From a virus, in IMG/VR virus record IMGVR_UViG_3300037963_007019, positions 1 through 43,453 of that record: a stretch of 43,453 nucleotides of DNA. One strand, 5' to 3'. The notes beneath the pieces were generated by a model. That model saw only the letters and a program-made list of their open reading frames with translations. It had not been told where the DNA came from and made no database searches. Position 1 is the first letter of the stretch. Each line of letters begins with the position of its first letter. The position numbers and the translations under genes are program-made. Shown here one piece after another: positions 4,824 through 21,898 of the stretch.

Positions 4824-5444
4824 ATGAAATGGAAATATAATAACTCTTCTGAAGAAGAGGGAAAAGAAAAAGAGCCAGTACAGTTTGTTGTAAGTGCAAA
4901 TCAAACAGGGGGAAATGTAACTAGAGTAAGTGAGAATAATGTTTATTTTTATGGAGATATTCTAGAATCTAATGCTCTCGAACTTAATTCAATATTACAT
5001 GATTTAGATAAGAAGCTTAGTATTACACAGAACTTTCTAGATGTAAAACCACATATTAATTTAAGAATTAACTCCTATGGTGGTTCTTTATTTGCTGGAT
5101 TAGCTACTGTTGATTGTATTAGAAATTTAAATTGCGAAGTTCATTCGTATATAGAAGGAGCTGCTGCTTCTGCTGCTACTATAATTTCTGTAGTTTGTGA
5201 TAAAAGGTATATCGGAAAATATTCTAAAATGTTAATTCATCAACTTTCATCTATGGCCTATGGTAAATACACAGAGCTAGAAGATGATATGATAAATAAT
5301 ACTCACTTAATGGAGACTATAAAAGCTATATATAAGGAATATACTAAAGTACCTATGAGAAAGCTTAATGAAATTCTAAAGCATGATTTATGGTTTGATG
5401 CAGATACATGTCAAGAATTAGGTTTAGTCGACTTTATTCAATAA
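4824..5444 (+). CDS. ClpP-like serine protease
   Basis: A 206-residue protein of the ClpP/crotonase-fold protease family. The oxyanion region INSYGGSL is at 82-89, the nucleophile is S116 in GAAASAA, H139 is in MLIHQ and the likely acid is D188. The S-H-D spacing (23 and 49 residues) is close to that of E. coli ClpP (25 and 49). A charged N-terminal extension of about 25 residues precedes the core. No Clp ATPase is in the window, so it may use a host ATPase or act alone. The dedicated prohead protease gp21 is encoded elsewhere here, so this is not needed for capsid maturation. Its end overlaps the convergent spike gene by 11 bases. Confidence 0.9.
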   Translation: MKWKYNNSSEEEGKEKEPVQFVVSANQTGGNVTRVSENNVYFYGDILESNALELNSILHDLDKKLSITQNFLDVKPHINLRINSYGGSLFAGLATVDCIRNLNCEVHSYIEGAAASAATIISVVCDKRYIGKYSKMLIHQLSSMAYGKYTELEDDMINNTHLMETIKAIYKEYTKVPMRKLNEILKHDLWFDADTCQELGLVDFIQ

Positions 5445-8654: not shown

Positions 8655-8813
8655 ATGCCCAAAAGGGAAGTAGAATTATTTACCACGGATAGTGATTTCT
8701 ATCCTCTAGAAAATAGTAAGAAAAAAAGAGCATTTTTATTAGTTTTAACTTGGTTAATGACTACTGGACTATTGATTTTTATACCATACGTATTCTTAAA
8801 ATTATCTACTTAG
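8655..8813 (+). CDS. Small single-pass membrane protein
   Basis: A 52-residue protein with a charged, polar N-terminal half (residues 1-27, ending SKKKR) and one strongly hydrophobic C-terminal helix (about 28-50). The frame is open upstream to 8559, but the ATG at 8655 is set by the late octamer five bases before it, and the longer version would overlap the transglycosylase gene. The basic patch before the helix suggests the N-terminus stays in the cytoplasm. A role in lysis or host membrane takeover is possible but not shown. Its last eight bases overlap the end of the cyclase gene on the other strand. Confidence 0.6.
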   Translation: MPKREVELFTTDSDFYPLENSKKKRAFLLVLTWLMTTGLLIFIPYVFLKLST

Positions 8814-10857
8814 TAGTAAGTCTGTATATAGCATCCCACCCTTCACCTGGATCATTCTCTCGTAAATGATCTATTCTATTCATCATCATAACATAATATT
8901 CTTTTAATTCAGGGTATTTTTTACTATTTTTTACCCCCATTTTAATAGCTTCACCCCATACTCTATTTTTATAATAGTTAATAAACAGTTCATGATCAGA
9001 AGTATCTCCTCCGTGGTTAGCTAAACCAGTGTCGTTTAGTATGGTATATATTTTTATACCTTCTTTCTTTCCCTTAACAGCTATTTTATCAAGTTCCACA
9101 AAATTAAAAACTTCCTCTATACCTTCTATAGTCTTTTCACCTAGAAGTATTCCAACGTTATAATTTTTAGTTTGACCTTCTAATCTAGCAGCTAAATTAA
9201 CAGCATCACCTAAACAGGTATAGTCAAATCTCTGAGTAGATCCCATATTACCTACTACTACGTCACCTGAATTAATACCTATACCCATTTTTAAGATCAT
9301 AGAGTCATCATCTAATTCATTATTAACTTTTGATAATAAATTAAACATATCCAAAGCACATCTAATGCTATTGACTCTATGCTCCTTATCATCTAGAGGG
9401 GCGTTCCAAAATGCCATTAAAGCATCACCTATAAACTTATCAACAGTACCTTGATACTTAATTACACTTCCAGTCATAGGTGTTAAATATTCATTAATTA
9501 GCTTAGTTAAGCCCTGTGGATTTGATTTAAACTTTTCGCTTATAGATGTAAAGTCTCTTAAGTCACTAAACAGTATAGATAACTCTTTAGTATCTCCACC
9601 TAGTTGAAGCTTAGAAGGATCTTTTTGTAGTAGTTTTACTATTGAAGGTGCTAGATAATGCTCGAATTGACCTTTAATTTGTCTTTTTGATTTATTTTCT
9701 TGAACGAATCTAACAAATGTTGCGAATGACCAAGTTACAAATATTGTAAAAATAGGCCATGTAAAATCATATAACAGATTTGATTCAAACAGTTTATTAC
9801 CTATATATGGTAAGAAAAATATACTAACTAAAATAGTACATAAACTCCATATATAAGGTAGCCATAATGCAGTTATTATTATTAATGCACTTACTGCAGC
9901 TGCTACCATTAACTCATGTATAACAAATTCATCTTGTCTTTCTAATCTAGATTCATCTATCATCATTTGAAGAGTAGTAGCATGTACAAACTGACTATAT
10001 TTTGTTCCTAGAGCTGTAGGTACTGTATTAGTAAGACCTTCAGCTGCTGGAGATATAAAAACTATCTTGTCCTGAACTTTACTCCAGTCTTCATCTATAA
10101 ATGAAATGGTGGGTATATTATACTTGTAATTTAACCATACTCTAGAATTAAAATCTGTTTTTATTGGTTCCATCCCGTAAACTCTTAAAGCTAGTATTCC
10201 AGCTTCATCAGCTTTTACTTGATAAGAATCTTCACCTCCAAATAATCTAAGTACTTCTAAAGCTAAAGTTGGGTAATATTTACCCTTAATTTGTATTACT
10301 AACGGCATTCTTCTAACTACACCATCTAGCTCTGGAGCTGTAGCTAACATACCTACACCTGCTGCAGACTCGCCTAATTTTTTAACAGGTCCTATAGCTT
10401 CAGGATAATCAAATAAGTAGTTGTCTATATCGGATCCAATAACTGATATACCTCGTGGTACAGGAGTACCTTTACCTTTTGTACTAGCAGATTGACCAAG
10501 TACAACTGGTACTTGCTGCATAATATCTATAAGATAGTCATCTTGTTTTAATCTATCTTCCTCAGCATAAAGTATAGGTAGTACAACCAACGCCGCGCCA
10601 CTTTCATAAGCTTTTACTACGCTATCTGCAATTATATTTCTAGGCCATGGCCATTGACCATTTTTATCTAAACTAGCTTCATCTATTTCTACTATACAAA
10701 CACTATCAGAATCTACCTTTTCTTGCCCACGCTGATAAAAGTCAAATGATTTTAATCTTGCTGTCTCTACAAAAAACGGATCATATGTTCTTATAATAAG
10801 AAGAAATATAGTAAAAAGTAGGCATATTATGTAATTTTTAAAATTTAAGATTTTCAT
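8806..10857 (-). CDS. CHASE2-domain class III adenylate cyclase
   Basis: A 683-residue membrane receptor cyclase. Domain order: N-terminal membrane helix (about 8-23), extracytoplasmic CHASE2 sensor (about 28-310), three membrane helices (about 313-335, 338-353, 366-386), catalytic domain (about 425-610) and a C-terminal tail. The active site is intact: metal ligands D432 (FSDLRDFT) and D478 (IGDALMAF), purine-selecting K474 and T547, and transition-state N554 and R558 (NLAARLE). The K/T pair is typical of ATP-using class IIIb cyclases. This should make cAMP in response to an envelope signal. The start overlaps the FecR gene by four bases (ATGA). A full-length receptor cyclase in a phage is striking. 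Confidence 0.93.
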   Translation of the reverse strand: MKILNFKNYIICLLFTIFLLIIRTYDPFFVETARLKSFDFYQRGQEKVDSDSVCIVEIDEASLDKNGQWPWPRNIIADSVVKAYESGAALVVLPILYAEEDRLKQDDYLIDIMQQVPVVLGQSASTKGKGTPVPRGISVIGSDIDNYLFDYPEAIGPVKKLGESAAGVGMLATAPELDGVVRRMPLVIQIKGKYYPTLALEVLRLFGGEDSYQVKADEAGILALRVYGMEPIKTDFNSRVWLNYKYNIPTISFIDEDWSKVQDKIVFISPAAEGLTNTVPTALGTKYSQFVHATTLQMMIDESRLERQDEFVIHELMVAAAVSALIIITALWLPYIWSLCTILVSIFFLPYIGNKLFESNLLYDFTWPIFTIFVTWSFATFVRFVQENKSKRQIKGQFEHYLAPSIVKLLQKDPSKLQLGGDTKELSILFSDLRDFTSISEKFKSNPQGLTKLINEYLTPMTGSVIKYQGTVDKFIGDALMAFWNAPLDDKEHRVNSIRCALDMFNLLSKVNNELDDDSMILKMGIGINSGDVVVGNMGSTQRFDYTCLGDAVNLAARLEGQTKNYNVGILLGEKTIEGIEEVFNFVELDKIAVKGKKEGIKIYTILNDTGLANHGGDTSDHELFINYYKNRVWGEAIKMGVKNSKKYPELKEYYVMMMNRIDHLRENDPGEGWDAIYRLTTK

Positions 10858-11732
10858 TGTTCAATATTAAAGATCACACTATTACCTCCATTTAGTTTAT
10901 AAACTCCTAAACCTCCTCCTTGATTATGGTTTATAGTAGCATTAGTGTCTTTTTCTAATCTAAGTGATAATACAGAGCCTTGATCGCTTCTTCTCTCTAA
11001 ACTTACACGTCCATCTTGCAATAAATTAAATATAGAAGGTATAGTTCTCTTTGTCTTTTCTTCTACGTTCTCATTATCAGCCATTCTCTGCTCATTTTCA
11101 TTATTCCTATCTCGCTGCTCTTCTTGCGATATACTAGTTACTCTTGCTCCTTTAACAGGTTTACTAGGTGGATTTATATTATTATCAACCCTAGTAACTT
11201 GATATGCTTGATTTAATAAAACTGTACCACCTGCATTACTAACCTCAATAGAACCAACGTACATATTACCGTTAGCATCTATTGATGGTAAGAGCTTAAA
11301 TGTTGATCTTCCAGCAGCGTCTATTGTCATAGTAAAATCAGTTCCTCTAACTGATACAGAAGCAGTAGGTGACGATATCTTTACATTCTTCCTACTATTT
11401 TTAGCTATTAATCCGGATGAATATCTTAATGAACCTAATTTACCTTTTATAGATAGCTTTCCTGTTTTAGATTTATCATCGTAAACAAACTCATCAATTT
11501 TTAACTTTGAATATTCAGATAGAGCTACTTTAGTATTATCTACGAATACTACTTTTATAGTACCATTTAACGTCTCAAGATCATCATTCATTTTAACTGG
11601 AGTCTTTAACTCAGTTAAAATTTTATCTTGTTCTCTAGTTATTTGAGCTCGTTGAGTTTGTTTTTCAACTTCGCCTATTGCAAAACTACGGCTGCTGACC
11701 GCCATTAGAAGGGCCATCGACACCATGACCAT
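10854..11732 (-). CDS. Secreted FecR-domain protein
   Basis: The frame is open from 11858, but the in-frame ATG at 11732 (others at 11726, 11717 and 11705) starts a plausible signal peptide ending SRSFA and avoids a long overlap with the curlin-like gene. That gives 292 residues. After the signal peptide, a FecR-type beta domain includes the diagnostic SPTASVSVRGTDFTM segment (about residues 120-134) and a QAYQVTRV strand. A charged linker rich in Asn, Glu and Arg and a beta-like C-terminus follow. In bacteria, FecR-domain genes often sit next to CHASE2-cyclase genes, as here. It probably works in the periplasm with the cyclase sensor. The exact start is uncertain. Confidence 0.8.
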   Translation of the reverse strand: MVMVSMALLMAVSSRSFAIGEVEKQTQRAQITREQDKILTELKTPVKMNDDLETLNGTIKVVFVDNTKVALSEYSKLKIDEFVYDDKSKTGKLSIKGKLGSLRYSSGLIAKNSRKNVKISSPTASVSVRGTDFTMTIDAAGRSTFKLLPSIDANGNMYVGSIEVSNAGGTVLLNQAYQVTRVDNNINPPSKPVKGARVTSISQEEQRDRNNENEQRMADNENVEEKTKRTIPSIFNLLQDGRVSLERRSDQGSVLSLRLEKDTNATINHNQGGGLGVYKLNGGNSVIFNIEQ

Positions 11733-12453
11733 TTGTAACTTCAACGCTAAGCAAGTTAGTTTCGCCGAGATATGTCGGAGCTGTTCCATCGGATTGTAGT
11801 ATAGTATAGTTATTATCACTTCCAGAAACTGAGAGATCAATGTTGTTAGGGTCACCACCTAATTGAACTATATCTAGTCTGTTATTACTACCAAATATAT
11901 CAACTAACTGATTATTACCAATACCACCAGTTTGACCTTCCTGATATGAATTAACTATATTTTCATTTCCTAGAATAGTGTAATCATTATTTACATTATC
12001 GCTATCATATATTTGAAAAAGCATATTGTTATTGTTACCTTCAATACTCAAGTCTAACGTTGAGCTATTAGTAAAAGCAGGAGTAACTATATCATCATCA
12101 GCAGCAACATTTATCACATTATTGTTTCCAGCAATATCAAGTAAAAACGTATTTTCATTTCCTTCTATTACAGTTTCTATATCGTTTCCTGTACCAGTTA
12201 TTAAGAAGTCAAAAAGCTCTCCGTTACCAACATTATTAAGATCTAAAATGTTTTCATCACCAACAAATACTAAATCATAGTCTTTATTTTCCCCCTGTAA
12301 TCTCGATCTTTTATCAGTATCACCAATTTGGTTAGAAGCACCAAACTGTATAATATCAAAGGTACCAGTATTACCTGATTGATCTAAATAGATTTCATTA
12401 TTAGCAGTAGCTAATAACGACGATAACATAAGCGCAAAAATAGTTTTCTTCAT
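11686..12453 (-). CDS. Curlin-like secreted solenoid protein (CsgA-like)
   Basis: A 255-residue protein with a signal peptide (MKKTIFALMLSSLLATA) and a body of G-x-x-N turns separated by short beta strands. Turn glycines at 54, 65, 76, 87, 98 and 109 are exactly 11 residues apart, and others (27/38, 177/188/199) keep the same step. Two 11-residue strand-turn units equal the 22-23-residue curlin repeat, so a stacked beta-solenoid or amyloid fibre is likely. The first unit keeps Gln and Asn at curlin-like places (QFGASNQ). It lies directly after csgG, the exporter of curlins. It is more acidic and Asn-rich than E. coli CsgA, and the classic S-x5-Q-x-G repeat is degenerate. Confidence 0.75.
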   Translation of the reverse strand: MKKTIFALMLSSLLATANNEIYLDQSGNTGTFDIIQFGASNQIGDTDKRSRLQGENKDYDLVFVGDENILDLNNVGNGELFDFLITGTGNDIETVIEGNENTFLLDIAGNNNVINVAADDDIVTPAFTNSSTLDLSIEGNNNNMLFQIYDSDNVNNDYTILGNENIVNSYQEGQTGGIGNNQLVDIFGSNNRLDIVQLGGDPNNIDLSVSGSDNNYTILQSDGTAPTYLGETNLLSVEVTNGHGVDGPSNGGQQP

Positions 12454-12458
12454 GTAAG

Positions 12459-12466
12459 TATTTATT
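12459..12466 (-). promoter_or_regulatory. Late promoter octamer AATAAATA
   Basis: Minus-strand AATAAATA lies between csgG and the curlin-like gene, ending five bases before the ATG at 12453. The curlin-like, FecR and cyclase genes can thus have their own late transcript. Confidence 0.6.
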
Positions 12467-12477
12467 CAAATAGCTTA

Positions 12478-13278
12478 CTATTTACTCTCTTTAAACTTCC
12501 AATATTCCTCATCCTTACCCTTGTGAATAATATCGATAACAGCTTTATCTAGTGCAGCTCTTACACAAGTAGAAACTAATTCATTCTTTGCATAACCTAT
12601 TTCTGCTTCAGCGGGTAAAGTATCCATATCAAAGAATTTGAACAACGTGCCTGATATCTTGGTCGATATAATAGTCTTAGAAGAAGTAGTAGCTAATAGT
12701 ACTTCGCCTGTCATAGTACTTACTATTCTTAAAGCAATAGTAACTGTATCTTGCCTATATTCATCCGTCAACCCTACGCCTAAATATGCAGCTCCCGCGC
12801 CTCCAGTTATGTTATTAACATCATAATCTAATATACCACCAAAAGCTAAAACACCTGCGTATTTTTGCGGTGGTAGGGCTACTGGCTCTTGATCAAAAGA
12901 TTGTCTAGTTTGATTTACTAAAGATCTTTCCCTTAAAACACTTTCTTGTTCAGCTCTTTCTAAAACTTTAAACCAACCAGTAGCCATTAACGACTCCATC
13001 AAATAAGCTTCTGCACCTTGAGTAACAGCTGATGAGAAAGTTGCGTAATTATCTGAAGTTGACCGCTTACCAGTTAAATCTCTAAACTTACCTACTCCAA
13101 TATAAATTTCTGGGCCATCAAGCTTAGGTACACTTTTTAACTCTTCTATAAGAGGTGTAGTATTAATTTTTGGTAAAGTAAAGTCAGGTTTAGTCTTACT
13201 ATTATGAGTAATAGTATTACAGCTAGAACATATACTTATTAAAGAAAGTATAGTTAAAATTTTACTCACCTTCAGCAT
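12478..13278 (-). CDS. csgG: Curli export channel CsgG
   Basis: A 266-residue CsgG-family outer-membrane lipoprotein. The signal peptide ends in a lipobox-like SICSSC with C20 as the likely lipidated residue. The core aligns along its length with E. coli CsgG: IYIGVGKFRDLTG, FSSAVTQGA, GWFKVLERAEQESVLRER, LAFGGILDYD, TGGAGAAYLGVG, LRIVSTMTGEVL, SSKTIIS and EIGYAKNELV. CsgG forms a nine-subunit diffusion channel that secretes curlins. The phenylalanine of the constriction loop (TFSS for NFST in E. coli) is kept. It overlaps csgF by 17 bases, so the two are probably co-translated. Confidence 0.95.
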   Translation of the reverse strand: MLKVSKILTILSLISICSSCNTITHNSKTKPDFTLPKINTTPLIEELKSVPKLDGPEIYIGVGKFRDLTGKRSTSDNYATFSSAVTQGAEAYLMESLMATGWFKVLERAEQESVLRERSLVNQTRQSFDQEPVALPPQKYAGVLAFGGILDYDVNNITGGAGAAYLGVGLTDEYRQDTVTIALRIVSTMTGEVLLATTSSKTIISTKISGTLFKFFDMDTLPAEAEIGYAKNELVSTCVRAALDKAVIDIIHKGKDEEYWKFKESK

Positions 13279-13735
13279 CTTCTCCTAATCCAGTATCTGG
13301 TAATGATAAAGTACCAATTGGAATAGTAATAGTTGTAACTTCTCCATCAGTACTGTATACAGATAGAGTAATAGTATCACCGATCTTACCCCAAGTAACT
13401 GTATTACCATCTAACGTAAACTGTCCTGCGTCTGCTCCAGCTTCAGCAAACAACTGCTCAGTAACTTGTTTAGAGAGTTCAGAATATATTCTTGTTTGAA
13501 GATTCGAAAGAAAAGCATTGATAGGCTCTCTTTGTTCTAAAAGACCTAGCTGTAACTCTAGAGATCTTAATTCATCTCTGATAGACTTCTTTCTATTATA
13601 GCGCATATTATTAAGATTAATTTGATGCGCGCTATAGCCTATACCGCTAAAGGTTGGAGATTTAAATTTAAAAACCAAACCGTCACCTAAAACTTGCGTA
13701 GATAACAGTATTAATACTAAAAAGATTAGCTTCAT
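13262..13735 (-). CDS. csgF: Curli assembly factor CsgF
   Basis: A 157-residue protein with a signal peptide (residues 1-17) followed by a mature N-terminus beginning DGLVFKFKSPTFSG. This matches the CsgF segment (FQF.NPNFGG) that plugs into the CsgG channel. A middle helical part (about 50-95) and a C-terminal beta domain (about 105-148, ITLSVYSTDGEVTTI) follow the CsgF plan. The tail is acidic. In E. coli, CsgF forms a second constriction on CsgG and helps anchor nucleation at the cell surface. CsgE, CsgB and CsgC are not in this window. A degenerate late octamer (AGTAAATA, 13743-13750) precedes it. Confidence 0.88.
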   Translation of the reverse strand: MKLIFLVLILLSTQVLGDGLVFKFKSPTFSGIGYSAHQINLNNMRYNRKKSIRDELRSLELQLGLLEQREPINAFLSNLQTRIYSELSKQVTEQLFAEAGADAGQFTLDGNTVTWGKIGDTITLSVYSTDGEVTTITIPIGTLSLPDTGLGEDAEGE

Positions 13736-14043
13736 ACGTTTTTATTTACTCCCTTCTTTGGATTTTTCATTACTTTTTTTTCAACTACTATGCTTATTTT
13801 ATCTTTATCCTTCTCTTCAGCCTCTTCTAAAATAAGATTTATCTTCGTCATTAATCTAATCATATCATTATCTAACATTCTAACCTTATCTATAAGATTA
13901 ATAACTATAGACATAGCGTCATCTATAACCGGTTTTATTTCTCTAGTTACCCATTTCCATATATAAAAAACAAAATAACCTAATCCACAAGCTGCCATTA
14001 TTGGAAACCCGTATTTACTTATACCTTCAATTATATTTTCCAT
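13732..14043 (-). CDS. Small membrane protein with coiled tail, holin-like
   Basis: A 103-residue protein with an N-terminal segment (about 1-13, GISKYGFPI), one membrane helix (about 13-30), a helical and charged cytoplasmic part (about 35-80) and a basic C-terminus. The KYGFPI entry and short helix-coil plan resemble the BhlA/UviB-type holin family, but the match is by eye. It is a paralogue of the gene just upstream (shared FPI.A......F.....W/F pattern). Its start overlaps the upstream stop and its end overlaps csgF by four bases, so it is part of the curli transcription unit. Confidence 0.65.
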   Translation of the reverse strand: MENIIEGISKYGFPIMAACGLGYFVFYIWKWVTREIKPVIDDAMSIVINLIDKVRMLDNDMIRLMTKINLILEEAEEKDKDKISIVVEKKVMKNPKKGVNKNV

Positions 14044-14324
14044 TAGTCTTTTCTCGCGTCCTCCTTTCCTTCGCTTGCAGCTAATCTTTCTATATTAGGC
14101 TTCTTACCAAAAGCACAAGATATCAAAGTATCAATCTTTACTATATCATTATTCATAGTATCTATTCTATTCACAATACCTTTTATTAAACCACACAATC
14201 CTTTAATAGAACTAGTTAACTCGCTAAGTATAAATTTTAGAATTATAAATATAAAGAATCCACAAGCTACTGCACCAGCTATAGGGAATCCAACTTTTTC
14301 AATTATTGTAAAGAATCCTTCCAT
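14043..14324 (-). CDS. Small membrane protein, paralogue of the next gene
   Basis: A 93-residue protein with KVGFPI at 10-15, a long hydrophobic helix (about 14-33) and a helical C-terminal part with heptad-like spacing (about 40-68), then a charged end. The layout and the GFPI motif match the downstream gene, so the two are tandem duplicates that have diverged. A variant late octamer (ACTAAATA, 14332-14339) lies seven bases before the ATG. It heads the unit containing csgF, csgG, the curlin-like gene, FecR and cyclase. It could be a holin or a membrane adaptor for the export system. Confidence 0.65.
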   Translation of the reverse strand: MEGFFTIIEKVGFPIAGAVACGFFIFIILKFILSELTSSIKGLCGLIKGIVNRIDTMNNDIVKIDTLISCAFGKKPNIERLAASEGKEDARKD

Positions 14325-14331
14325 TTTAATA

Positions 14332-14339
14332 TATTTAGT
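14332..14339 (-). promoter_or_regulatory. Variant late promoter ACTAAATA
   Basis: A degenerate octamer seven bases before the ATG at 14324, at the head of the curli unit. It is weaker than the other late sites. Confidence 0.35.
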
Positions 14340-14367
14340 TGAAAAATGTAATATTTGTCTATATAAT
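14339..14367 (+). promoter_or_regulatory. Sigma70-type promoter TTGAAA-17-TATAAT
   Basis: TTGAAA at 14339-14344 and TATAAT at 14362-14367 are separated by 17 bases, the best full sigma70 promoter in the window. The predicted start is near 14374, seven bases before the ATG at 14381. Confidence 0.65.
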
Positions 14368-14380
14368 ATATAGTAACGTC

Positions 14381-14761
14381 ATGGCACAGTTAATATTACA
14401 TTTGGTAGGAGATTACCTCCTCCAATCAGGCTGGATGGCGAATAATAAATCTAAAAGTAGTTTAGCGGCGGGAGTTCATGCCTTAACATATTCTCTACCC
14501 TTTCTTATTCTTAGACCCTCTTTGGCAGCGTGGCTAGTAATATTTATAACGCATTTTTTCATAGATCGTTATGCATTAGCTAGGCATGTTGCTGTAGTAA
14601 AAAATTATTTAGCTCCTAAAAGACATTGGCTAAAGAAAGATAATATATCTCAATTTGGTTATTGTAAAAAAACGCCCGATTTCTTAGCTATTTGGCTATT
14701 GATTATTACTGATAATACACTACACTTAACTATAAACTATCTCGCACTAAAGTACCTTTAG
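14381..14761 (+). CDS. DUF3307-like membrane protein
   Basis: A 126-residue polytopic membrane protein. It begins with HLVGDYLLQSGWMANNKS (about 6-23), followed by hydrophobic segments at about 27-42, 45-58 and 98-120, and a conserved-looking THFFIDRYALAR stretch. This pattern fits the DUF3307 family found in phages and bacteria; its function is unknown. The frame is open from a TTG at 14339, but that codon belongs to the -35 element and the ATG at 14381 follows the predicted transcription start. The SprT-like gene follows. Confidence 0.7.
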   Translation: MAQLILHLVGDYLLQSGWMANNKSKSSLAAGVHALTYSLPFLILRPSLAAWLVIFITHFFIDRYALARHVAVVKNYLAPKRHWLKKDNISQFGYCKKTPDFLAIWLLIITDNTLHLTINYLALKYL

Positions 14762-17915: not shown

Positions 17916-18533
17916 CTATTTATTCGATAAAAAATTAACATAATCCCAATTTATTATTTTTAGAAAATTCTTTATATATTTTTCTCTATCTGGACCGTAC
18001 TTTTTATAGTAAGCATGCTCCCACACATCTATACCTAGAATAGGAGTCCCTAGGTCATACATAAGGGGGTTATCTTGATTATCGGTTTGAACAATTTTAA
18101 GTTTATTACCTTTTTTGACTAACCAAACCCACCCGGATCCAAAGTGCGATTTAGCTTGCTTAGTAAACTCTTCATAGAAATTATCTATTGATTTAAAACT
18201 CTTCTCTAACTCTTCTTTTATTAAACCTCTAACAGGGTGCCTATCTGGTGTCATCATATACCAAAACAATTGATGGTTATATGCTCCTCCAGCATTGTTC
18301 TTAATAGCATCTTTCTTTTTACCAGCTTTAGTTACTAATGTTTCAAGATCTGGTCTAACGCTAGTAGCATCATTTAGTTTTTTAATATATCCTTTATAAT
18401 GCTTGTTATAATGAAGCTTCATAGTTTCTTCATCAATATGAGGCTCTAGAGCATCAAACGAGTACGGTAGTTTAACAGGCTTATAACCATCCGCCTGCTC
18501 TAAAATAATATTAGATAGTTTTGAAAATCTCAT
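17916..18533 (-). CDS. sodA: Mn-type superoxide dismutase with N-terminal extension
   Basis: A 205-residue Fe/Mn superoxide dismutase. The metal ligands are H41, H87 (GGAYNHQLFW), D169 and H173 (DVWEHAYY). The second-shell glutamine sits in NQDNPLM (Q153), as in Mn enzymes, with Gly pairs at 82-83. The usual N-terminus (LPYSFDAL) begins only at residue 22. The extra 18 or so residues read MRFSKLSNIILE followed by QADG, which has the I-x-E site expected for the T4 prohead protease. It may therefore be packaged in the head and ejected with DNA. It has its own late promoter just downstream of the gp23 terminator. Confidence 0.93.
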   Translation of the reverse strand: MRFSKLSNIILEQADGYKPVKLPYSFDALEPHIDEETMKLHYNKHYKGYIKKLNDATSVRPDLETLVTKAGKKKDAIKNNAGGAYNHQLFWYMMTPDRHPVRGLIKEELEKSFKSIDNFYEEFTKQAKSHFGSGWVWLVKKGNKLKIVQTDNQDNPLMYDLGTPILGIDVWEHAYYKKYGPDREKYIKNFLKIINWDYVNFLSNK

Positions 18534-18539
18534 TATTTA

Positions 18540-18547
18540 TATTTATC
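18540..18547 (-). promoter_or_regulatory. Late promoter octamer for the dismutase gene
   Basis: Minus-strand GATAAATA ends six bases before the ATG at 18533. A second, perfect copy (TATAAATA, 18534-18541) abuts the ATG. The same double arrangement occurs before the gene at 30389. Confidence 0.65.
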
Positions 18548-18554
18548 TAAGTAT

Positions 18555-18589
18555 AAAAAAAGAACAGCGGAACTTTCGTTCCGCTGCTC
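18555..18589 (-). terminator. Rho-independent terminator after gp23
   Basis: On the minus strand a 12-pair stem (18578-18589 with 18562-18573, one G-U pair) closes a GAAA tetraloop and is followed by seven T residues. It lies 28 bases after the gp23 stop and before the dismutase promoter. Confidence 0.9.
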
Positions 18590-18616
18590 AAATTGGGTTG
18601 CTTTCTCAGCTGTATA

Positions 18617-20146
18617 TTAGAAATACACAGACTGCGAAGCAGGAGTAAACGCTGTACCAAGCCCCTGACATAATACCACATGGTAGTACAGAGAAGCCCC
18701 AAAGATGTTATCAACAACCCCGTAACGAGTAAGTAACCCGACGCGAGGAGCGAAATCATTAGGACCAATAGTTCTCTGAACCATGACCGGAATGTAAGGA
18801 CAATAAATGATACCAGTATCGTAGAACTCAGGACCCTTGTAACCGAGAAGAGCATACTCAATAGTCTGAGTATTAGCTGCTCCATTAACGGTGTACTGAG
18901 CTTGCTGAGTGTAAACGTTGGAGTTTTGAACCTCCGTACGAGTATCACGGTAAACGTTGAATCTTCCACCAAGTGAACCAACCTTTGCAATACCAACAGG
19001 CTGAGTGTTAACGTCACCTTGTACAGGTACCCACTGGAATTCAGGGAGCATCTCAAGGATGGCGCAAACACGAGGAGTTGCTACTATAAAGTTAGCAGAT
19101 CCACGTCTGTTACGTACAGCAATACGATTGGACTCGATAATTAATCTCTGATAGAAGTCGCGGTTTCTCTCAACCATCCAACGTCCGTCAGCAGAAGCTG
19201 GGGACCAGATGGAGTAACCGGTTCCAAATCCCTGCCCAAGAGCGGCTTGGATCATTCTCATGAGCATCTCACGGTCGATCTCAGCTTGGATCTCGTATGA
19301 CATAGCATTCGTGATCTCAGCATCAATATCGATACCGTTCATGTTCTTAAGGTCTTGCTCAAGCTCGACGGACCAACGTGCGCCAAGGCGGCGTGTGCCG
19401 GCCTCAACAGCGGTCTTCTCGAACTTAACCTCAACCTGAGGAATGTTTCCAGTAATCTCAAAAGCAGAAAGAATCTGAGCAACACCTCTGTCCTGATCGG
19501 CGAATGACCAGTCAGTACCTCCAGAGAGTCTCTGGGAGGACGAACCAGTAAACCTGGTATCAAGTAATTGATAACCAAGCTCGTCGTCATTAAGTCCACC
19601 AACGCCAGAATAATCTGACGCGACATCACCTGCACGTCCATCAGGCGCCGGAATATTACCGGGACCAGTGTTCGAGTCGCGATCCGTAGTACCATCAGTT
19701 CCTGTACCTAAGGCAGAGGACTGGTAGGCATAACGAAGCGCAAATGCAAGTCCAACAGGACCTGACATAGGCTGGACACCAACGATTTCATTGGTGATAA
19801 GCTCAGGGAACGTACGACGAATCATCGGAATAAGCACTTTTGGCAGACGTGCATCACCAGTGGCGTAAGTGTCTTGGGAATTTACTTGCCCCACGTCTCC
19901 GATAGGGTTGTAGACTCCGCCAACACTTGCACCGTTTCCGAAAGCACCACCAGTTGTTGCACCACCGGAGTTATCCTCCTCAATGCACCATCTCTCTTGG
20001 TTTTCCAAGAGAACAGCAGTGTTCAAACGAGTGTGATCGTCTTCAATAGGCTTAATACTATCAGAAGTATAGTCAAGAACAGGTGCCCACTTTTCAAGCA
20101 GTGCATCGGCTCTATCTCTATCGATAAATGATTGTGGTTTGTTCAT
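18617..20146 (-). CDS. gp23: Major capsid protein gp23
   Basis: A 509-residue T4-type major capsid protein. Recognisable parts include the IPMIRRTFPELITNEIVGVQPMSGP segment (about residues 109-133), LGARWSVELEQDLKN, EIDREML and the C-terminal VGLLTRYGVV. An N-terminal delta region with a possible gp21 cut after I-E-E at residue 57 precedes the mature shell protein. The frame is open to 20188, but the ATG at 20146 has a strong Shine-Dalgarno (AAGGA). G+C is clearly higher than in its neighbours (28 of 60 in the line at 19321), as expected from codon selection in the most abundant protein. A strong terminator follows. Confidence 0.97.
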   Translation of the reverse strand: MNKPQSFIDRDRADALLEKWAPVLDYTSDSIKPIEDDHTRLNTAVLLENQERWCIEEDNSGGATTGGAFGNGASVGGVYNPIGDVGQVNSQDTYATGDARLPKVLIPMIRRTFPELITNEIVGVQPMSGPVGLAFALRYAYQSSALGTGTDGTTDRDSNTGPGNIPAPDGRAGDVASDYSGVGGLNDDELGYQLLDTRFTGSSSQRLSGGTDWSFADQDRGVAQILSAFEITGNIPQVEVKFEKTAVEAGTRRLGARWSVELEQDLKNMNGIDIDAEITNAMSYEIQAEIDREMLMRMIQAALGQGFGTGYSIWSPASADGRWMVERNRDFYQRLIIESNRIAVRNRRGSANFIVATPRVCAILEMLPEFQWVPVQGDVNTQPVGIAKVGSLGGRFNVYRDTRTEVQNSNVYTQQAQYTVNGAANTQTIEYALLGYKGPEFYDTGIIYCPYIPVMVQRTIGPNDFAPRVGLLTRYGVVDNIFGASLYYHVVLCQGLGTAFTPASQSVYF

Positions 20147-21226: not shown

Positions 21227-21234
21227 TATTTATT
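21227..21234 (-). promoter_or_regulatory. Late promoter octamer AATAAATA
   Basis: Minus-strand octamer five bases before the ATG at 21221, overlapping the gp21 stop codon. It can transcribe the small core gene, gp22 and gp23. Confidence 0.65.
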
Positions 21235-21898
21235 ACAGATTTTTAATAAAGCTTAAAATTCTGTTAGTTAAAAATGATTCTACTTCTTTTTTAGGCATAT
21301 TTACTAGGCTAGCTGCAAAATTATCATAATGTTCTTCAAACTTTCCATCTTCTGCTAATACCCATTGTTTAGATTCTAAAATACCATTCACAAATGCTTT
21401 AGGGTAGGAAGGATCAGCAACACAATCAATAGCTACCAACTTCATATTTTTTACTACGTTATGGTCAGAACTCTCTTCTAATGTACCTAATGCTCTTGAT
21501 GACATACCTACTTTTACTCCATCATTTATTAACGACCTTACTATTTGGCCACATGGAGTTGTTAAAACTTTTGACTTTCCATAAAATACGTTTCCATCTT
21601 GAGTAATCTCAGTTACCATATGACATGCTCTTTCTAGATCAACATCTGCTGATGTAGGATGATTAAGCTCGCCCATAGCCCTACCTGGTATTACCATCTC
21701 CTCATTATAACGTTTAACCTCTCTTTTTAATTCATTAATAGGATATAATCGATTATTTCTATTAACACCTTCAGCCATCATATAAGGACCTTTAATATAG
21801 AGATTAGACGGAGCATCTTTATTTGTTTCTTCTTCAATGTATTCGAACTCATCTGCAATATCAGGTTTTTCTACAACGAGATTTAATTTTAAAGCCAT
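21233..21898 (-). CDS. gp21: Prohead core protease gp21
   Basis: A 221-residue serine protease of the T4 gp21 family, which matures the prohead by cutting after [ILV]-x-E. The expected triad is visible: H80 in MGELNHP, S133 in GMSSRALG and D162 in CVADPSYP. The N-terminal half carries the GPYMMAEGVNRNNRLYP segment. It is followed by the small core gene, gp22 and gp23 in the canonical order. A late octamer lies six bases before its ATG. Confidence 0.96.
   Translation of the reverse strand: MALKLNLVVEKPDIADEFEYIEEETNKDAPSNLYIKGPYMMAEGVNRNNRLYPINELKREVKRYNEEMVIPGRAMGELNHPTSADVDLERACHMVTEITQDGNVFYGKSKVLTTPCGQIVRSLINDGVKVGMSSRALGTLEESSDHNVVKNMKLVAIDCVADPSYPKAFVNGILESKQWVLAEDGKFEEHYDNFAASLVNMPKKEVESFLTNRILSFIKNL

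Follow-up and report, generated by a model that had tools for sequence, protein, structure and literature searches.

A predicted curli-type export block with a FecR-domain protein and a CHASE2 cyclase in a T4-like phage genome record

Gene content of the block

We analysed a 43,453-base virus record (IMGVR_UViG_3300037963_007019; hereafter the window, whose positions serve as coordinates throughout) in which a preliminary description, made from the letters alone, had pointed out a seven-gene block related to curli export. All seven genes were found at 8806-14324 on the minus strand, following one another almost without gaps, and the identities proposed for them proved right: the CHASE2 cyclase, FecR, CsgG and CsgF genes have Pfam matches and the curlin-like gene is recognised by a family profile. 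The layout had also been called fused; this is adjacency only, and no gene fusion was seen. From the first gene of the block to the last, the features are as follows.

14043-14324, minus strand: small membrane protein 1 (93 residues; phrog_18771, 1.8e-25), first gene of the block
13732-14043, minus strand: small membrane protein 2 (103 residues; same family, phrog_18771, 3.7e-29)
13262-13735, minus strand: CsgF homologue (157 residues; signal peptide; Pfam CsgF, 2.7e-13, residues 4-139)
12478-13278, minus strand: homologue of the outer-membrane secretion channel CsgG (266 residues; Pfam, 2.2e-46, residues 54-261; lipoprotein cysteine C20)
11686-12453, minus strand: secreted curlin-like repeat protein (255 residues; family profile matches)
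10854-11792, minus strand, start uncertain: FecR-domain protein with a C-terminal curlin-like beta tail (Pfam FecR, 1e-7)
8806-10857, minus strand: CHASE2 receptor with a class III adenylate cyclase domain (683 residues; Pfam CHASE2, 3.4e-39; Guanylate_cyc, 8.4e-23)

The listed FecR open reading frame begins at an upstream GTG at 11858, far inside the curlin gene, and the true start probably lies at 11792 or at an in-frame ATG downstream of it. The T4-like myophage context is certain, as the window encodes gp23, portal, terminase, sheath, tail tubes, tape measure, clamp loader and ribonucleotide reductase; a comparison of its gp23 with 50,697 deposited phage records gave only ~32% identity for the best matches.

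Curli genes in phages have been described before. CsgF and CsgG were reported in pelagimyophages (PMC7029224, 2020) and in phage Melnitz (PMC9004378, 2022); the complete set, FecR and adenylate cyclase included, was reported for podo- and myo-pelagiphages (PMC9599517, 2022). The last study detected viral curli proteins at every one of the 65 GOV2.0 stations, noted that CsgE is missing from phage curli regions too, and stated that FecR and the cyclase do not occur in canonical bacterial curli operons. The direct link of csg genes to a sensor-cyclase pair, which had been taken to be new, is therefore real but already published (PMC9599517) and annotated in HTVC008M and Melnitz, and we rejected the claim of novelty. 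The window is an added member of this kind of module, from a T4-like lineage distant from the HTVC008M and Melnitz isolates. It shares with the pelagiphage modules (PMC9599517; HTVC008M, KC465899; PMC7029224) the gene order CsgF, CsgG, curlin-like, FecR and cyclase, together with two small upstream proteins, but lacks the second curlin gene of HTVC008M, whose cyclase is 41% identical. Melnitz (MZ577097, PMC9004378) has the same gene set and order, including FecR and a CHASE2-type cyclase, but carries two curlin-like genes, and Ser stands in its cyclase where the window keeps the transition-state Asn.

The export components and the small membrane proteins

The CsgG homologue matches the solved E. 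coli CsgG structures over nearly its full length (9e-34; PDB 3x2r, 6l7a and others), and its lipoprotein cysteine C20 is invariant among 20 phage CsgG proteins. The CsgF homologue has the N-terminal FxFxxPxFxG motif in common with E. coli CsgF and differs from it by a longer central helical region. That both proteins can be recognised along their lengths, as had been claimed, is borne out by the Pfam matches (54-261 of 266 residues for CsgG and 4-139 of 157 for CsgF).

The curlin-like protein of the window has no Pfam match by itself. Among 30 of its orthologues or paralogues, 13 match the Pfam family Curlin_rpt (best 5e-8), and the family profile detects in the PDB a curlin-repeat protein (8c50, 2.3e-9) and the CsgA fibre (8enq, 1e-3). 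Profiles made from phage curlins also find the curlins of bacterial csg operons. The AlphaFold (AF2) model of the curlin-like protein is a regular all-beta structure with a mean predicted local distance difference test score (pLDDT) of 83. In these sequence tests the block thus has the parts that characterise type VIII secretion: a CsgG channel, its CsgF partner and a curlin-repeat substrate, the last by family profile.

No match to CsgE, CsgC or CsgD was found among the proteins of the block with Pfam or NCBIfam. The preliminary description had listed CsgE, CsgB and CsgC as missing; this stands for CsgE and CsgC. As to CsgB, there is one curlin-like gene, and CsgA and CsgB are not separable by sequence. 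Compared with bacterial curli operons (csgBAC/csgDEFG and their alpha- and gammaproteobacterial variants), CsgG, CsgF and curlin are common to both, whereas the phage block has no CsgE, CsgC or CsgD match. As judged from these homologies, the core of curli export is present and the complete E. coli set is not.

Both small membrane proteins have an N-terminal hydrophobic stretch. They are probably the proteins encoded upstream of csgF that were labelled 'HK, sometimes two' (for histidine kinase) in an earlier study (PMC9599517). This label misfits them, because at 93 and 103 residues they contain no kinase domain (HisKA/HATPase) detectable with Pfam or NCBIfam. In the 50,697 phage records the family of small membrane protein 1 matches only csg-bearing phages, and a search of plasmids for the small membrane proteins found none. 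The pair is confined to csg-bearing phages in the annotated set and looks like a true component of the block. At some loci it lies downstream on the opposite strand; one of these (L027) is a curli block in a 306,714-base phage contig.

The FecR-domain protein and its tail

The AlphaFold model of the FecR-domain protein consists of the FecR domain (pLDDT ~95), a low-confidence linker at residues 218-248 and a separate C-terminal module of five strands; the rows of loci L001 and L002 were left out of the alignments used for structure prediction. The FecR fold known from FecR/FecI signalling is present, both by Pfam (1e-7) and by the likeness of the model to the PupR cell-surface signalling domain (6ovk, 3e-4) and the putative anti-sigma factor 4m0h in Foldseek searches. 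No cognate extracytoplasmic function (ECF) sigma factor (FecI) and no FecA-like TonB receptor were found in the block and its immediate neighbours. Foldseek also returned 5ix9, an entry titled 'Cell surface anchoring domain', which is matched by the domain profile as well (6e-5) and superimposes on part of the domain with a root-mean-square deviation of 1.3 over 64 columns. We take 5ix9 to be the N-terminal region of the ice-binding RTX adhesin of Marinomonas primoryensis. The membrane-anchoring domain of that adhesin is described as the first of the periplasmic retention domains (PMC13090378). The modelled FecR domain thus resembles anti-sigma signalling domains as well as an RTX-adhesin anchoring domain.

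Near the C-terminus of the phage FecR proteins we found a conserved motif, hydrophobic-x-hydrophobic-x-Q. All 42 complete phage FecR proteins end in it, against 6 of the 748 other open reading frames of the same loci and one of 36 FecR proteins encoded around bacterial CHASE2 cyclases. In a second phage set the strict pattern was found in 54 of 64 proteins, and most of the others are truncated or run on by a residue or two. We defined the pattern with the sequences already in view, and within a single phage family shared ancestry accounts for part of its conservation. The same motif ends 13 of 41 proteins of the curlA group and 6 of 10 of the curlB group; the window's own curlin-like protein carries an extra tail and does not end in it. 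Three blocks without a cyclase keep FecR together with the tail motif (shifted by one residue in L237), which argues that FecR belongs to the fibre side first.

The CHASE2 cyclase

The cyclase has the residues expected of a class III adenylate cyclase: two metal-binding Asp, Lys and Thr at the Lys and Thr/Ser/Asp substrate positions, Asn and Arg (D432, K474, D478, T547, N554 and R558). The pairing of Lys with Thr, Ser or Asp marks ATP as the substrate in this class. The catalytic residues D, D, K and R are invariant across 19 cyclases, and the cyclases matched in the PDB include CyaB (3r5g) and 6fht. The active site, as read from these residues, is intact. In the cyclases of two other loci (L002 and L028) the transition-state Asn is replaced by Ser, and their activity may be altered.

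Linkage in viruses and in bacteria

The absence of any linkage of the cyclase and FecR genes to csgFG in other phages had been named beforehand as an outcome that would speak against the proposed association. We found the genes to be almost always linked. A relative of the cyclase is encoded at 51 viral loci, 38 of which have an upstream side that is not cut by a contig end, and by hand count 37 of these 38 carry CsgF, CsgG, curlin and FecR. The exception (L053, a 31,786-base record) has the cyclase and the small membrane-protein pair and no CsgG in the record. The reverse count started from CsgG, which was searched for in viral contigs by alignment, a single-sequence query having returned just the two closest relatives. 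Around the 33 viral CsgG genes with more than 3 kb before and 8 kb after them, CsgF, curlin and FecR are present in every case, the cyclase in 30 and a small membrane protein in 26; the CsgG-based and cyclase-based sets overlap in part.

Bacterial loci look different. We inspected the surroundings, within ~9 kb (some loci being shorter), of the 80 best bacterial relatives of the cyclase, and none has CsgG, CsgF or curlin nearby. This is not a blind spot: profiles built on phage CsgG and CsgF recognise their E. coli counterparts. A FecR-domain gene lies immediately upstream of the cyclase gene at 26 of the 71 loci with upstream room, and several of the encoded FecR proteins are giant cadherin, immunoglobulin-like or RTX adhesins with the FecR domain near the N-terminus. 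Giant FecR adhesin-like genes lie at or near the CHASE2 cyclase genes of L059, L062, L066, L067 and other alphaproteobacterial loci. Conversely, none of nine bacterial csg loci with curlins, from alpha- and gammaproteobacterial genomes (one contig being only 10 kb), has a FecR or cyclase gene nearby. In the loci sampled, which are few on the csg side (nine), the phage block therefore joins two modules that bacteria keep apart.

A related pair is known from Burkholderia, where a LysM-FecR protein and a CHASE2 kinase share an operon (BiofilmReg) and a strain with an interrupted response-regulator gene forms no biofilm (PMC5192318). Like the window, bacterial pairs of this kind place a predicted periplasmic FecR-domain protein beside a CHASE2 inner-membrane receptor; BiofilmReg uses a histidine kinase and LysM-FecR where the window has a cyclase, and at the sampled bacterial cyclase loci giant adhesins often include the FecR domain, with no csg genes nearby. 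The RTX-adhesin retention domains (5ix9; LapA-type, PMC13090378) compare with the window through the FecR fold match, which covers part of the domain, and through the notion that an exported adhesive protein may be anchored in the periplasm. They differ in that no LapG or LapD was seen in the block, where no search was aimed at LapG-type cleavage, and in the absence of type I secretion.

Expression signature

The motif TAAATA lies 4-9 nucleotides before the start codon of 20 of the 48 window genes, compared with 1.5 genes on average, and never more than 7, in 2000 shuffles. The count of TATAAATA over the whole window is not enriched, and the enrichment is seen only at the position before start codons. 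Genes with the motif include those for head protease, portal, neck, terminase, tubes, sheath and baseplate hub, whereas ribonucleotide reductase, thymidylate kinase, GTP cyclohydrolase, dUTPase and clamp loader lack it; examples before the ATG of virion genes are at the starts 21898, 25776, 28682 and 30999. A phage-encoded Fe/Mn superoxide dismutase gene (17916-18533, minus strand) also has a late-type motif. Within the block the motif precedes three genes:

14332-14337, minus strand: TAAATA, 7 nucleotides before the start codon of small membrane protein 1, the first of the block
13743-13748, minus strand: TAAATA, 7 nucleotides before the csgF start codon
12459-12464, minus strand: TAAATA, 5 nucleotides before the curlin start codon

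Relatives have it before these three genes roughly half of the time; before CsgG or FecR it does not occur in them. The late promoter of T4 offers an analogy, and by this analogy the TAAATA-ATG signature suggests late, nearly leaderless transcripts; alternatively, TAAATA could be a translation signal instead of a late promoter. Because it carries the signature of the virion genes, the block is probably late.

Genomic surroundings

A DUF3307 membrane protein gene (14339-14761, plus strand) is directly divergent from the curli block. Beside the ribonucleotide reductase genes lies a gene for a ClpP-like protease (4824-5444, plus strand), whose best matches are head maturation protease and ATP-dependent protease families and which is additional to the head protease at 21233-21898. 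The region of the gp23 gene (18001-20000) has a guanine-plus-cytosine content of 44%, compared with ~32% elsewhere.

Discussion

We tentatively favour, at somewhat less than an even chance, the reading that the block is a late, phage-carried curli-type (type VIII) export module combined with a bacterial FecR/CHASE2-cyclase pair, in which FecR serves as anchor and state reporter. In the late phase of infection, the curlin-like protein would leave through an outer-membrane channel formed by CsgG and CsgF. The FecR domain would stay in the periplasm as an anchor, and the flexible linker and beta tail of the FecR protein may cap, hold or seed curlin chains at the channel, standing in for the nucleator that the block lacks. 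The cyclase would sit in the inner membrane, where its CHASE2 domain would read the state of the FecR domain, and the cyclic AMP (cAMP) that it makes would inform the infected cell of export or fibre assembly. The weakest step is the gain for the phage, most likely an altered cell surface that would limit superinfection or hold hosts and progeny together; superinfection exclusion and clumping, like a role as a pore, have been proposed before (PMC7029224, PMC9004378, PMC9599517). For the tail of FecR, the match to an anchoring domain, the separate bacterial halves and the late signature, we found no published description in the literature searched.

This reading draws on the csg homologies, the near-obligate linkage in phages, the FecR tail motif and the adhesin-type FecR proteins of bacteria, and also on the 5ix9 and PupR matches, the late signature, the Burkholderia operon (PMC5192318) and the conserved catalytic residues. 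Several observations weigh against it. CsgE and CsgC are absent from the block, which leaves the gating of the pore without explanation, and one viral cyclase record (L053) has no CsgG. Foldseek found no significant match for the curlin model. The FecR tail has no Pfam curlin match, its likeness to curlin consisting of a short motif and a predicted beta fold, and a profile-profile comparison of the tail with curlin repeats gave a probability of 3.4%, the FecR-domain control scoring the same. Homology of the tail to curlin repeats is thus unsupported by this comparison, and we claim only the motif and the predicted beta module. Finally, no clumping was seen in OM43 cells infected with Melnitz (PMC9004378).

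A more specific version, which we regard as doubtful, is that phages joined two bacterial modules and added a curlin-like tail to the FecR anchor. The product would be a self-reporting fibre, which FecR anchors and nucleates through CsgG and whose state the cyclase turns into cAMP.

Among the other explanations, one holds that CsgG and CsgF have been repurposed as a gated outer-membrane pore or a pinholin-like lysis timer, with the curlin-like protein as plug or vestige. It was proposed for Melnitz from the remodelling of CsgF and from synteny (PMC9004378), and it would fit the late-type expression signature and the two small membrane proteins that travel with the block. However, curlin and FecR accompany CsgG in 33 of 33 long-flanked blocks, as expected of an export system with its substrates, and an outer-membrane pore alone does not breach the inner membrane; we consider this explanation unlikely. 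We judge it similarly improbable that cAMP is the main product and serves to reprogramme the host, FecR and CHASE2 sensing envelope events such as a second phage and the curli genes being targets or neighbours. The intact class III cyclase with its conserved catalytic residues, present in 30 of the 33 blocks, speaks for such a role, but the remaining three have FecR and csg genes without a cyclase, and the tail ties FecR to curlin.

The pore might instead admit large nutrients during infection, with FecR and CHASE2 sensing them, for example as ferric siderophores. FecR is named for iron-citrate signalling and import has been raised as an option (PMC7029224, PMC9599517), but neither a FecA-like receptor nor a FecI sigma factor turned up in the block, the FecR proteins linked to cyclases in bacteria include several that are adhesins and not transport regulators, and a pore needs neither CsgF nor curlin; we consider uptake very unlikely. 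The most improbable explanation is that the curlin-like proteins, instead of forming fibres, belong to the virion or tail or serve at the surface as receptor blockers: it would suit the virion-gene type of expression signature and the single small secreted beta protein of the window lineage, but the signal peptide and the csgG linkage point to export from the cell, and the same profile recognises phage and bacterial curlins.

If the self-reporting fibre proved true, it would be a new type of amyloid-export checkpoint. Many ocean phages carry curli blocks, and the finding that FecR constantly accompanies curlin, and in its csg-linked form bears a curlin-like tail, makes the function of these blocks testable. 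It also points to a wider interpretation of FecR/CHASE2 pairs in bacteria, where giant adhesins take part in several of them.

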